NCBI RefSeq assembly: GCF_000003605.2
Contig: NW_003139322.1
Location: 257,567 to 300,282, forward strand
Reading direction: 5' to 3'
DNA length: 42,716 nucleotides
DNA from: Saccoglossus kowalevskii
Taxonomy: Eukaryota > Hemichordata > Enteropneusta > Harrimaniidae
Shown here: positions 7,236 through 42,716 of the stretch, piece after piece
How positions within the stretch are numbered: the first letter of the stretch is position 1
How the letters are laid out: each line of letters starts with the position of its first letter
Made by a program: the position numbers and the translations under genes
The notes under the pieces: generated by a model
Told to the model about the DNA's origin: nothing
Database searches by the model: none
Seen by the model: only the letters and a program-made list of their open reading frames with translations

Positions 7236-18358
<11,123 letters not shown>

Positions 18359-22007: not shown

Positions 22008-25000
22008 TTAGGGACAGCTGAAATGTAAGGCAAACATGTAAGTTGTAGAGTACACACACTGTCAAATATATTGATTTTGTAATAGTGGATGAAATTTTTT
22101 TATTTTGTGGTTACTACTGAACAAATGACAAATAATTATATAATGATAATTACATATACCTGCAAACGTAAATAGAGTGTAGATCCATAAATAAACACGT
22201 GGATACATTTTTATAAAGTTTACTAACAACTAACTAAACATGCTTAATTATAGATAAACATATACCTAAGATTGATATGTGTATTAATTAATATATTCAC
22301 CTGTCGGGAATTACCCAACTATTTCCAAACTCCTCGGAGTGAAACGTTCGTCGTCCATCCGGAAGAGTGAAGTCATTGTGTGGATTACCATCATCATTTC
22401 CAAGCAATCCACACACTTTACCACGCAGGTTGATGTCATTAAATCCAATGTTTAAACCATGAATCCGTCTCTCCCATGTCAAAGATAAAGCAGGTTCCTT
22501 CAAATGTATTTGGATTCTATTTTGTTCTACATCGACGTAGCCTTCATCATTGCCAATCTCTGCCGATGGTGGCGTCATGGGCTGTCCTTTGATCTGTATA
22601 AATTAAACAACGTATGGATGTCTGGGAATGCATGGACTTATGCAGTGTGTTTCGGTTTCCATAAAATCACATCCCCGTAAATATATTGAAAGGTCAAACG
22701 ATTTCCCAAAATACAATATTGCGAGCTAAGATTGTCTGTAATAACGGACAAGAGGTATTGTAAATGAAATAAGCACACTCTAATAATACAGTTCAGTATT
22801 CTGCAAAATGTGAAACGAATGTTCTTTAACAACAACATAAAATAAGCATATAGGGACTGCCGCCGAACCATGTATTTGTATATATGAAATATATGTATAC
22901 ATGATTTTAGTGTATAATTATAATTTAACTAACCAACACTGTATCGTCTTCATTTATTCGAATCAGTTGTCTTCCATTTGAGATCACATTGAACGCAACC
23001 ATGAATGTCACTGGTTTGTATGGGTAGCTACGGTTTCTTGCACGGAAATCAGCAGTGACTTCAAACGATGGGTGGATACCACTATCACAGCTCTTAGTCA
23101 ATGTATATGAACAGTTTCCATTGAAGTTATACTTGAGTCCATCAAATGTGGTTACGTGTGGGTCTTTTTCGACTGAACCACCTGTATAAATGTAACAAGT
23201 ACCATTATTTGTTTCTTTCAACTGTCATTTAAATGTCTCGCCAACTGTTATCTTATTTGAACACAATAAATAACACACAAACATAAAATATTTTCACTTT
23301 TGTTATAGAAATTCATGCAACTAATAACAAAATTTCCACACTCTAAATATGTATTAACTAGCCACAAACATAGAACATTTACTAATGTAATATTAAGTAC
23401 GTGGAAAGCAATACTAGTCTCTTCAGCTAACATGCTTACTTACAGTCAACTGGTTGACTGCTGCTACTAACGCCAGTGCTACTAGTATACTGGAAGGTAT
23501 ACTGAGTGTTATTATCTGGTTTGAAATCGGAAGCTACTTCAACTTCTGTTTCACCATCCGCTATGTTAACAGGTCCTTCCCACACGATTTCCCCTGTCGT
23601 ATCTGATGTGATAGTTAGCCCGATCTCGGTGGATCTGTAAAACGAAGACCGTTTTTTGCCCCATTCGATGTCTATTGTACAAATACCGAATATGTGAATC
23701 CTGATCTTGCCACCTCCTGCATTACAAATAAAGATGTGACAATCAACAATATAACCATGATGAAGTTAGCTTTAGCACAATGTTGAAACAGTGTAATATG
23801 AGTTAATTTGCTCCTGAAATAAAGAATTCAGTCACCATACACGATAAGTCGGTATGCACTTACCGTCCCGCAAATATATCACATGCAATATCATCAATGG
23901 GGCCTATATAATGTGGGGGGGGGGGCATACAGGGCTGGCCTGATTCAATTGAGCTGAAACTATATCTGGGAAAGAGGAGAGATCACAAACAAATTAAAAT
24001 TTACATATCAGTATACTGACTATACCATGAGTTGAATTTGTTTTATTCTACCAGACAAACGTCATTTTAATATTGCAATACATACACAGCGTTACTTGTA
24101 TCAGTTGTGCATTTATTTATATAGCGTTTTTGTGGATTTAAGCTTATTATACGTAAACAATGTGGTAAGCTTTCATTATTATTAAATAATATTTTAAAAT
24201 CAATTATATAGAAATCATCAGGTAACATGATGTTGATTTTGTTTATGAATAAACCGATTTGTAATATTATATATAGTTATATACTATCTTTATGTACCGG
24301 TACTTTTATTATTTATAAATGATTTCACTTTCATTAATGAAATGTTATTTATTAATTAAATTCATGAAAACAATCGTTGTTGCAACATTTATTTACAAAC
24401 TATGGATCAACATATACTATACTTTGTAAATCATTAATGAAGAAATAGTATATTTCGGAATTGTTCATGGCCTTTGTAAACAAAAAAACAAAATTGATAT
24501 TTTTTTTACATGTCCGATATAATATGATAACTAAATAATTTAGGTGCAACTAAAATCATTATATAGCAAAACGGGAAATCTAGAGTTTTGGATTAATAAA
24601 TAAGTGGTTTTGGTACGCTGGTATTGTTAGCACTCAGATATAAAAATTGAATGTAACGATTTCGTAGTTGTGAATGGTACAAAGTAAAGCTCAAATAATG
24701 GCTCTCTGATATATTTAGAGGTTTTATCAATATTTCAATATATCATTTTAAAATTCTCTGTACATTGCTGAAGCCCTTGAGTAGTACTGGGATTGCGTGG
24801 CCTACAGTGAGACGATTCTGGCTGACTGCGAGCAGGATATAGAAATGAATCATGCTGGAGTAGTTATTGTATGAATTGTATGAGTACACTCACGTTTTGC
24901 GAGTTCGTGAATTTCATCTCCAGAAGTTGCCTCTATATCGTTGACTGTCACTGGAGAAGCCTGTCAGTTCAAACAAATAAGTTAAATAAAAAGGAGAGTT

Positions 25001-29142: not shown

Positions 29143-30134
29143 NNNNNNNNNNNNNNNNNNNNNNNNNNNNNNNNNNNNNNNNNNNNNNNNNNNNNNNNNN
29201 NNNNNNNNNNNNNNNNNNNNNNNNNNNNNNNNNNNNNNNNNNNNNNNNNNNNNNNNNNNNNNNNNNNNNNNNNNNNNNNNNNNNNNNNNNNNNNNNNNNN
29301 NNNNNNNNNNNNNNNNNNNNNNNNNNNNNNNNNNNNNNNNNNNNNNNNNNNNNNNNNNNNNNNNNNNNNNNNNNNNNNNNNNNNNNNNNNNNNNNNNNNN
29401 NNNNNNNNNNNNNNNNNNNNNNNNNNNNNNNNNNNNNNNNNNNNNNNNNNNNNNNNNNNNNNNNNNNNNNNNNNNNNNNNNNNNNNNNNNNNNNNNNNNN
29501 NNNNNNNNNNNNNNNNNNNNNNNNNNNNNNNNNNNNNNNNNNNNNNNNNNNNNNNNNNNNNNNNNNNNNNNNNNNNNNNNNNNNNNNNNNNNNNNNNNNN
29601 NNNNNNNNNNNNNNNNNNNNNNNNNNNNNNNNNNNNNNNNNNNNNNNNNNNNNNNNNNNNNNNNNNNNNNNNNNNNNNNNNNNNNNNNNNNNNNNNNNNN
29701 NNNNNNNNNNNNNNNNNNNNNNNNNNNNNNNNNNNNNNNNNNNNNNNNNNNNNNNNNNNNNNNNNNNNNNNNNNNNNNNNNNNNNNNNNNNNNNNNNNNN
29801 NNNNNNNNNNNNNNNNNNNNNNNNNNNNNNNNNNNNNNNNNNNNNNNNNNNNNNNNNNNNNNNNNNNNNNNNNNNNNNNNNNNNNNNNNNNNNNNNNNNN
29901 NNNNNNNNNNNNNNNNNNNNNNNNNNNNNNNNNNNNNNNNNNNNNNNNNNNNNNNNNNNNNNNNNNNNNNNNNNNNNNNNNNNNNNNNNNNNNNNNNNNN
30001 NNNNNNNNNNNNNNNNNNNNNNNNNNNNNNNNNNNNNNNNNNNNNNNNNNNNNNNNNNNNNNNNNNNNNNNNNNNNNNNNNNNNNNNNNNNNNNNNNNNN
30101 NNNNNNNNNNNNNNNNNNNNNNNNNNNNNNNNNN
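29143..30134. other. Assembly gap (992 N)
   Basis: A continuous N run. The long frames that cross it on both strands are artefacts. The true gap length is unknown if 992 is only an estimate. Confidence 1.
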
Positions 30135-34100: not shown

Positions 34101-35054
34101 ATTTTTGTTAAATCTTAAATTTGTACCATTGTTTTTATATCAGCTGCATTTCCAATTTATTTCTTCTTTTTTTATTATCAGCAGCATCCCTCTCTTTCAT
34201 TTTTCTTTCCAACTGTTTTTATACAAAATATCAAACATTAGGCTGGGCAGTTGGAATATTAACGGTTTGAGCAACAAATCACAAGATAATGATTTCAGGA
34301 AACACATAGCTTCACTTGACATCATATGTGTTCAAGAAACATGGCTCGGCAGTTACAGTAGATATGTTTACTTACCTTGACAAAAATGATTGTGTTAAAA
34401 CCCTAAAAACAGAAGGGGGTTGCTGTTTTATTCAGAAATAGTATAAAACACCTCATTGAAGTTAAAGGCTGTACAAATAACTTTATTCGGTGCAAAATCA
34501 ACAAAGCAATACTCAATTCAGACAAATACCTGTGTTGGTTGTATTTACATTCCCCTTGAAAATTCCTTTATATATAAAAACAAAGATCTTGACCTATTTA
34601 GCCTCTTAGAAAAAGACATCATAATATTCTCATCTGACGCCATCCTATTAGGTAATTTTAATAGTAGAATTGGCAACTTAAATGATGTAGTCGATGACAG
34701 TAAAAAACAGCATCTTCCCTTGTCAACTTATTATATCAATGGCAATTTTCGGAAACAAAATAACATAGATGTCCACTGTCACACGCAACGTAATATTACC
34801 GTAATTGGTATAGTACAGGTGTGATGGTTCAAATACCAAAATGGCAACAGTAACAGAAAGACTTCCCTGGCGGCGATGATAAAATACGAACACGGAGCCA
34901 ACAGATGAGCTTTCAACTGGTACTGGTATTATTATACTCTGCAAACATCAAGTACAATAACGCGGTAAAACTCCACTACTCCAATGACTAGATACTTAAA
35001 CTCCAATACAATTCAACGAGATCTCCGATCTGACTCAGTGCTGAACAACTCCCC

Positions 35055-35062
35055 TATATATA
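35055..35062 (-). promoter_or_regulatory. LTR TATA box
   Basis: The minus strand reads GGGTATATATAGGGG, with a start-like TTCAGCACTGAGTCAG about 10-25 bp downstream. A second AT element (CTATTTATAG) lies just upstream. This sits in the middle of the LTR, where the U3/R border is expected. Confidence 0.55.
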
Positions 35063-35127
35063 CCCACACTGTCTATAAATAGACCATTACATCAGCATAC
35101 ATAATGAGTCTGGAATTTACTACAAAT

Positions 35128-35243
35128 TTCTAGAATGTTCCATTACCTTCTATTGCCTCCTACAGTGTTCTATTACCTATTCAACCAGTTTTTAAAAAAA
35201 TCTAGAATATTCCACCCAGACACAGTACGGTTCTAGAACATTC
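35128..35243 (-). promoter_or_regulatory. Cluster of three heat-shock-element matches
   Basis: TTCTAGAATGTTC at 35128-35140 and TTCTAGAACATTC at 35231-35243 are perfect TTCnnGAAnnTTC trimers. ATCTAGAATATTC at 35200-35212 has one mismatch. HSF trimers bind three alternating nGAAn units. On the minus strand all three lie upstream of the LTR TATA box, the nearest 65 bp away. Confidence 0.65.
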
Positions 35244-36826
35244 TCAGTGACACGGAAGTGGTAAATAAGTCGTATGCGACATCCACTCATCATACAGTGT
35301 AAACAAATTTGGCAGAAAACTGATTAAATTATGAATTGACTGCAACCTAATTATTGTATACGGTAGAAGTATGGGTGTTTCAATGGGTAAATACACATGC
35401 CACACACCAAGAGGTAGCAGTACCATTAACTTTGCCATTACTTCTAAACCATTATTTGATAAAATTAATTACTTTAAAGTACATGGACTCTCACTAATCT
35501 CAGATCAGATCAGATAACCATACAAGTGATAAAAGATAATCTTCCTCAAATAATAAAACATCAAAAAATATAGTTGATCCCTGCAATCTAAATATATATA
35601 GGATAACCAGGCAAAACAAAATTTCGAAACATCGCAGATATTTAATATAATCTAAGCAACTCATATAATGACAATGATGCAGATACAATATTATCGATTT
35701 TGAAAATTAAAAACAAAAACACACACACACAAACAAAGAAAAATTGATTTGACCAAGTTTGTTGGTTCAACAAAAAAGAGCAGAGAAGTCTTTCAAATTT
35801 GCTGGAACAATTTTCCCCCAAACCTAAATATACGCGGACGTATCGAAATATCGAAGACGTTCAATTAATTAAGTTATTGTCAGTATCTACTAGGGGTGTC
35901 ACAATACACACCAATTATGGCCATGTATAGCGAGTTAGGCAGATACCCCCTAGATGTATTTATATATATAAAAAATTAAATATTACAGTCGAGCCATGAA
36001 TTCTAATAACGTGTTACTCAAGGAAGCATTTGTGGTAACCAAAACATTAAAAGTAAATGGTATTTAGAAGTAATATCGTTATTAAACAATAATATCATTC
36101 AGTTAACAACTGTGATAAATTAACCTCGGCACAAATGAAACAAATTGATTTGGGCATCAAGGATTTATTCTTAACAAGATGGAAAGGTGAGGTTCATAAT
36201 GACAACCGCACCAAAGCAAATGAGAAAAACAAACTGAGAAAATATCGACTAATCAAATCAGATTTAAACCTTGAGCCATATTTAGTCAAGCTAAAAAACT
36301 TTGAACTGCGTAGTGTGCTTACCAAATTTCGTCTAAGTGACCATAGTCTCAAAATTGAAATCGGTCGTCATAAAAAAATCCCATTAAACAGGGTTTGTGA
36401 CATGTGTAAAAAAGGTCTAATTGAGGATGAAATGCATTTTCTTATGGAATGCAACAAATATAATGAGTTGCGTACCAAACTGTTCAATAAAGCTAAGGAT
36501 ATGATCCCATCATTTGAAACAAACCTGCAGAGAAAAAATTTCATGGAATTGTTACAGAATGAAAACATTATTATACCAGTAGCACAGTTCATAAGTAAAA
36601 GCCTTGAAGTCAGGAAGCAGGGTCTTAATTGACATCTTAATGCCTGCTGTCAATTTAGTAATTTCATATTATTTAGTATTTTAGAGATTGTGTATTATTT
36701 AGTAATTTAGTGATTGTATTTGTTATTTAGTATAATATTTTTGTTTTGTTTTTTTCCTTGCACTTTGTGACCATTTTCTTTCCCTCCGGGGATTGTGTAA
36801 GAGTCAATAAGTAAATAAATAAACAC

Positions 36827-41520: not shown

Positions 41521-42340
41521 ACAATTATATTATAAATTGACATTGTCAATCCATTACTGTGTATACCATCAACACTGCACAATATTCATCGTAATAAATC
41601 TCATTATCATTGCAATCAAAACAAATAATCATTTCTCATATCACATTATACAATGCATTCACGTTATTATGCCTTCGTTATTGTTGCATGTTACTATATG
41701 CTGCTTTGGTGTAAATATATCTTGCGTTGATGTTGTGCGTTTCTTTGTTCATGTGCAATAGACCGGAAAAGTGATTGATTTAATAAACTTTTAAATTCAG
41801 CCTCCAAATTTGAGGGCTGATCTGCAGCAGCTCGGAACTCAGATATCATTGGCCAGTTTGAAAATACATTATTTGCATATTAAAATTTGAAAAAAAAAAT
41901 TGTAGGGTTGTATGTGAAAGCCATGAAAGGGAAAGTTTTGGGGGGGAAAGTTCCTAAAGGTCCCCTCACTACTAACCTGAACAATCACCCTATCACTCCA
42001 GCCCCAAATGTAATTTAACATGCCCCTCCAAATAACTGCAATGATACAAAGAAGGTATAGGGAGAGGCACTAGATGGGCACGTTTAGAGCTATTGGTGAG
42101 GTGGTTGTTGCAGACGTCAGGTACACTATTTGTACTGGTTATGTTTTTATTATAATTGACTTTAATTTAGATCATTTTAGTCACCTGTGTATGTTCGGCA
42201 GTAGCCGTGCTTAACATTATTGTTTCGATAGTTTTGTTTTGGGTTCCAAATGCAACTGGGACACCACCAGTTATAATCTGTTAATTAAAGTCACAGCTTT
42301 ATACATATCCACTTCATTTATTTGTTTGGAATGGATTTTG
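41521..42340. other. Gene-free spacer before the minisatellite
   Basis: No gene or named repeat is seen. A G-rich run lies near 41939. Confidence 0.3.
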
Positions 42341-42716
42341 TCAAATTCATCTTTTCATTTGGTTGAACAGGTTGAACGTGGTTGAACGAGGTTGAACGGA
42401 GATGAAATATATTTTGTCAAATTCATCTTTTCATTTGGTTGAACAGGTTGAACGTGGTTGAACGGGTTGAACGGAGAGGGAATGGATTTTGTTAAATTCA
42501 TCTTTTCATTTGGTTGAACAGGTTGAACGTGGTTGAACGAGGTTGAACGGAGAGAATGGATTTTGTAAATTCATCTTTTCATTTGGTTGAACGGTTGAAC
42601 GTGGTTGAACGAGGTTGAACGGAAAGGGAATGGATTTTGTCAAATTCATCTTTTCATTTGGTTGACTGGTTGAACGTGGTTGAACGAGGTTGAACAAGTT
42701 TGGAGTGAATTTTGTC
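42341..42716. repeat. 75-bp minisatellite with nested 11-bp units, cut by the window end
   Basis: The block TTCATCTTTTCATTTGGTTG recurs with starts of the larger unit near 42341, 42417, 42492, 42565 and 42640, a period of 73-76 bp. Each unit contains about four shorter repeats of GGTTGAAC plus two or three variable bases (AGG, GTG, GAG, GGG). The array continues past the window. Confidence 0.95.

Follow-up and report, generated by a model that had tools for sequence, protein, structure and literature searches.

Introduction

Did a retrotransposon of the hemichordate Saccoglossus kowalevskii place its own transcription under the heat-shock pathway? The question is raised by a candidate solo LTR that carries a cluster of heat-shock elements (HSEs). 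It lies in a stretch of 42,716 nucleotides, which is called the window here and in which all positions are counted. Use of the heat-shock pathway by retroelements is documented in plants and has been proposed in fungi. In this study, we asked whether the unit is an LTR insertion, whether its HSEs exceed chance, whether they stand where a promoter would need them, and which known systems it resembles. The coordinates of the features are collected in Table 1.

Table 1. Features of the candidate LTR and of its surroundings (window positions; LTR positions are counted on the minus strand)
Feature	Window position	Strand	LTR position	Remarks
Decayed LINE-like relic hosting the LTR	34240..36632	+		Exo_endo_phos start, frame resuming right of the LTR, perhaps 3' ORF; outer limits approximate
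TSD TCCAC, left copy	34772..34776			perfect 5-bp match to right copy
Solo LTR (best reading)	34777..35281	- (predicted)		505 bp; 5'-TGTCGC...GTGACA-3' on the minus strand; called from ends and length
TSD TCCAC, right copy	35282..35286			perfect 5-bp match to left copy
HSE1 GAATGTTCTAGAA	35231..35243	-	39-51	perfect trimer
HSE2 GAATATTCTAGAT	35200..35212	-	70-82	one mismatch
Extended HSE3 array	35108..35150	-	132-174	43 bp; nine alternating GAA/TTC-like units, 5-bp register
HSE3 core GAACATTCTAGAA	35128..35140	-	142-154	perfect trimer
Competing TATA-like TATAAATAG	35074..35082	+		opposite strand
TATA box TATATATAG	35054..35062	-	220-228	downstream of all three HSEs
Initiator-like TCAGATC	35027..35033	-	249-255	putative start site

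Results

Boundaries of the insertion and the relic around it

On the plus strand, the unit starts with TGTCACACG and ends with GTATGCGACA, giving the termini TGTC...GACA. The TG...CA ends and the TSD of 4-6 bp by which an LTR is recognised are both present. The preliminary description had called this stretch a solo LTR, and its coordinates proved exact to the base at both ends, with TCCAC on either side. No second copy of the LTR was found within the window.

The sequence around the LTR is LINE-like. The ORF 34102-34380, upstream of the LTR, encodes what Pfam recognises as the beginning of a LINE-type endonuclease (Exo_endo_phos, E 4.4e-06). The ORF interrupted by the LTR (34447-34824) had no Pfam match above threshold, the best being DUF3755 with an E of 0.025; its LINE identity is taken from the neighbouring ORF and from its own continuation. 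When the two flanks were joined minus one copy of the TSD, a single frame ran over the insertion point, reading ...FRKQNNIDVH up to the junction and then SSYSVNKFGRKLIKL, a stop and IDCNLIIVYGRSMG... (the right side begins SSYSVNKFG). The stop lies 16 residues past the junction and is followed by approximately 60 open residues, as would be expected of a decayed LINE. The ORF 36093-36632, on the same strand as the relic, gave a sub-threshold zf-RVT match (E 0.11) and may be the 3' end of the LINE. Because of the TSD, the clean ends and the frame that runs across the joined flanks, the unit is best read as a precise insertion, probably now a solo LTR, in an older LINE-like relic.

CpG content was considered as a clue to the age of the LTR and was dropped. 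The observed/expected ratio of 0.83 was equally high in 141 of the 393 other 505-bp pieces of the window, so this ordinary value is uninformative on recent activity or age. A tRNA scan of the window found none. A scan for bacterial-type promoters was set aside as irrelevant to the host.

Heat-shock elements and tests against chance

The trimer sought was GAAnnTTCnnGAA, in perfect and near-perfect form. The preliminary description had reported two perfect trimers and a near-perfect one within a 116-bp part of the LTR. This was confirmed: HSE1 and HSE3 are perfect, HSE2 has one mismatch, and the total span is 116 bp. An HSE is defined by three or more alternating nGAAn/nTTCn units that keep a 5-bp register, and at the sequence level the LTR has them. 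All three cores point the same way and have TA in the middle (GAAYRTTCTAGAW). From centre to centre, the successive distances are 31 and 72 bp, which corresponds to 2.95 and 6.86 helical turns; with three sites, these values near 3 and 7 turns are no more than a hint that the sites lie on roughly the same side of the helix. A wider internal duplication was considered as the origin of the HSEs and rejected, since HSE3 matches HSE2 over just 14 nt (13/14) and HSE1 over 8 nt.

The cluster was compared with shuffled sequences. Two perfect trimers occurred in none of 5000 dinucleotide shuffles of the LTR (mean 0.0036). Three non-overlapping trimers within 116 bp, at least two of them perfect, occurred in 0/20000 shuffles of the LTR and 0/1500 shuffles of the window. 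When overlapping trimers were counted separately, this looser cluster count was reached in 7/1500 window shuffles, and the significance of the cluster is thus sensitive to its definition. The whole window contains 3 perfect HSEs against a shuffle mean of 0.47 (1500 shuffles). It also contains 24 near-HSEs against a shuffle mean of 14.0, a number reached in 21 of 1500 shuffles; four of the 24 belong to the LTR, two of them overlapping. These results support the view that the HSE cluster in the LTR is non-random. The excess of near-HSEs in the window and the looser count also mean that the genome may favour HSE-like strings.

An extended array around HSE3, absent from the preliminary description, is added here. 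At exact 5-bp steps its units read GAA, TAA, GAA, TTC, GAA, TTG, GTA, TTC and GAC. Five of the nine units are perfect, and 22 of 27 bases agree with an ideal alternating array. By a post hoc statistic, the best LTR score for runs of 6, 7, 8 and 9 units was reached in 0/3000 shuffles of the LTR and nowhere else in the window. By the same post hoc statistic, the best scores for runs of 3, 4 and 5 units were reached in 10, 9 and 3 of 3000 LTR shuffles, respectively; the 3-unit score was reached at one other position of the window.

Promoter layout and orientation

In promoters of the hsp70 type, GAA/TTC trimers precede a TATA box and an initiator, with a strong HSE near the TATA box and in flies also with GAGA sites. 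The preliminary description had placed all HSEs of the LTR upstream of a TATA box on the transcribed strand and had seen in this the architecture of hsp70 promoters. The first part holds for the minus strand, where the TATA box (35062-35054) follows every HSE. The identity of the transcribed strand is itself a prediction. Because TATA boxes are present on both strands, the orientation of the LTR can only be a presumed one; besides the competing box in Table 1, the plus strand of the LTR also carries TATATATAC. A plus-strand reading of the LTR would put the HSEs downstream of the TATA boxes.

If the minus-strand orientation holds, transcription would start at the A at 35031 (LTR 251), 31 bp from the first T of the TATA box. 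This position, predicted from the TATA box and the initiator-like match, falls inside the range 35030-35045 on the minus strand that had been proposed for the start. The HSE centres would then stand at about -206, -175 and -103. In this orientation, the LTR would share with hsp70 promoters the trimers upstream of a TATA box and an initiator-like site. It differs from them in its wider spacing, in the absence of GAGAG and in having no strong HSE adjoining the TATA box. The hsp70 label is therefore too strong. The count of GAGAG/CTCTC in the LTR was 0.

Other signals in the LTR were also searched for. Read on the minus strand, its downstream part is rich in T, with 34 to 39 T per 101-base piece from position 203 on; U5 regions are often T-rich. 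The polyA signals AATAAA and ATTAAA were found on neither strand of the LTR, and the variant hexamers on the minus strand (LTR 108, 128 and 161) all lie upstream of the predicted start. No perfect STAT, TEAD, CRE or full GRE string was present in the LTR, judged by their consensus strings. Two GRE half-sites are present, and so is an AP-1-like TGAGTCA across the predicted start. Because of these sites, factors besides HSF could contribute to the activity of the LTR.

Other features of the window

The minus strand at 10451-16441 carries exons of a mitochondrial-type HSP70 (mortalin/HSPA9), with four ORFs matching Pfam HSP70. One of these ORFs (16124-16441) was compared with PDB sequences, and its best match was Stress-70 protein, mitochondrial. 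A perfect HSE (15890-15902) and an HSE with one mismatch (15908-15920) lie downstream of exon 16124-16441 and are apparently intronic. Inside the span of the HSP70 gene, an Rfam Histone3 3' UTR stem-loop was found at 12314-12359 on the minus strand (39.8 bits). No histone reading frame was seen beside it by eye in six frames, and a Pfam scan of the overlapping plus-strand ORF, the only ORF scanned there, gave no match. The stem-loop is perhaps a histone-derived or SINE-like relic.

A VWD-domain gene is represented at 22297-23224 on the minus strand by exons in two of the three adjacent ORFs that were tested; ORF 23436-23765 gave nothing above threshold. Like the intron-split exons of the mitochondrial-type HSP70, these exons speak for an animal host. 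The VWD exon 22925-23224, approximately 11.8 kb from the LTR, is the nearest domain-matching exon identified downstream on the minus strand. Tandem arrays occupy 1081-1821 (a 157-bp unit, 4.7 copies) and 42328-42695 (a 75-bp unit rich in GGTTGAACG, 4.9 copies). An assembly gap of 992 N extends over 29143-30134.

Relatives and known systems

Nine patterns derived from the LTR were scanned against bacterial, archaeal and viral contig collections, and no relative was found in them. Eight of the nine patterns gave nothing. The other one led to three viral-contig loci in which 16-17 bases are identical to the LTR end (E 0.003 to 0.010); all further pieces shared by these loci with the LTR had an E of at least 0.036, and the loci were taken as chance. 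Because a eukaryotic LTR is not expected in such collections, this silence is no evidence against a family.

The closest functional parallels come from plants. According to the available excerpt of a study of Brassicaceae copia elements, at least three adjacent nGAAn units define a basal HRE; elements with predicted perfect 3-unit HREs show heat induction up to hundred-fold and those with 4 units up to thousand-fold, while the gap and step types are mostly insufficient for heat induction (PMC5059998). Judged by this yardstick, the LTR has two putative 3P sites, one of them inside a longer degenerate array. Like ONSEN/COPIA78 and the other heat-responsive Brassicaceae copia elements covered by that excerpt, it has clustered potential HSF sites with at least three adjacent units; solo LTRs are mentioned for those elements too, and their transcription is heat-driven (PMC5059998). 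The heat-responsive ONSENs of A. thaliana carry a 4P and a gap HRE, and their induction by heat has been shown (PMC5059998), whereas the present LTR has two putative 3P sites, one near-3P site and a long degenerate array, all read from the DNA letters. Membership of the ONSEN (COPIA78) family itself is implausible because the host is an animal.

Similar cases are described in fungi and animals, again as far as excerpts of the cited papers go. The Cryptococcus elements TCN3 and TCN12 also have putative HSEs in their LTRs (two in TCN3, one in TCN12), which are tied to mobilisation at 37 °C; they are fungal, Hsf1 binding is suggested for them, and they are likened here by description, not by sequence (PMC12810828). 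In bovine leukaemia virus, whose U3 was tested in a reporter assay reviewed in PMC10236774, the LTR promoter, again an animal one, receives its HSF1 input ahead of the start. This retrovirus, likened by description, has one short HSE against the cluster of three sites here (PMC10236774). For the HIV-1 5' LTR, also a retroviral case likened by description, activation by HSF1 is accompanied by HSF1 ChIP (PMC4870680). Helitrons have carried many HSEs round the genome of Caenorhabditis, an animal, but they are rolling-circle DNA transposons and not LTR elements (PMC6927752); the Helitron HSE work is cited together with TE insertion into Drosophila HSP promoters in PMC13104882. In Drosophila, the LTRs of copia and gypsy have predicted HSF sites, one each, which were picked by matrix score and do not form an array, and those of Tirant and springer have predicted Cad sites (PMC10745035). 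Beyond the predicted copia and gypsy sites, a partial coverage of the literature, including the excerpt of PMC10745035, yielded no invertebrate LTR family for which an HSE array is described. The LTR is thus a candidate further case of a known functional kind, the HSE-bearing LTRs, and not an ONSEN.

Discussion

We believe that the unit is a solo LTR whose U3 most likely served as an HSF-dependent promoter or enhancer, its parent being expressed and copied under stress, and we put the probability of this reading at about 0.58. It is favoured because the HSE cluster is non-random, the array is in register, and a TATA box and an initiator-like site follow downstream. The single copy, the TATA boxes on two strands, the absence of AATAAA and GAGAG, and the distance of the HSEs from the TATA box count against it. 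In the proposed sequence of events, a retrotransposon would have inserted in an old LINE, and its two LTRs would later have recombined, leaving the present LTR behind. Its U3 would correspond to the minus strand from 35281 down to about 35032 and would act as the HSF-dependent promoter or enhancer. HSF trimers would bind all three HSEs, including the extended array closest to the TATA box. Transcription would start at about 35031, downstream of the TATA box. Under heat or other forms of proteotoxic stress, the parent retrotransposon would be expressed and would make copies of itself, and this property would be conserved in the family.

Other explanations have to be weighed against this one. 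The HSEs may be real HSF sites that served mainly developmental, germline or general stress input instead of acute heat, in a promoter otherwise ordinary and silenced by the host. The excerpted Drosophila study ascribes LTR stress activation to several stress and regeneration factors (PMC10745035), and the AP-1-like string at the predicted start would suit such input; the HSE array is nevertheless the strongest feature of the LTR among the motifs tried, and we consider this explanation unlikely. It is less probable again that the cluster occurs in this copy alone, or arose by accident from the composition of an AT-rich LTR, and has no regulatory role in the family. That the LTR is known from a single copy, the general excess of near-HSEs and the looser shuffle count would agree with an accident, but the non-overlapping cluster never appeared in the shuffles, the HSEs lie upstream of a TATA box, and the array keeps its register.

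The nature of the unit can be questioned as well, since the LTR call rests on the ends, the TSD and the promoter-like content of a solo unit without an internal region. Similar features could belong to a short, non-autonomous DNA element whose inverted ends are as tiny as TGTC/GACA. The TG...CA ends combined with a 5-bp TSD and the promoter-like motifs in their expected places speak against such an element, as does the absence of a terminal inverted repeat among the inverted pairs listed (25 of 27), and we regard it as highly improbable.

The reading as a solo LTR with an HSF-dependent U3 can be extended to a family. In that case, an animal LTR family would carry an unusually strong HSF platform in its U3, would be induced by heat, and would seed HSF-responsive promoters through its solo LTRs, as an animal counterpart of ONSEN. 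This extension is put forward tentatively. A single solo LTR makes a test of the relation between stress and transposition concrete and does not itself provide proof. If true, an animal family of LTRs in which strong HSE arrays are conserved would connect temperature stress, directly and testably, with transposition and with a rewiring of the stress response.
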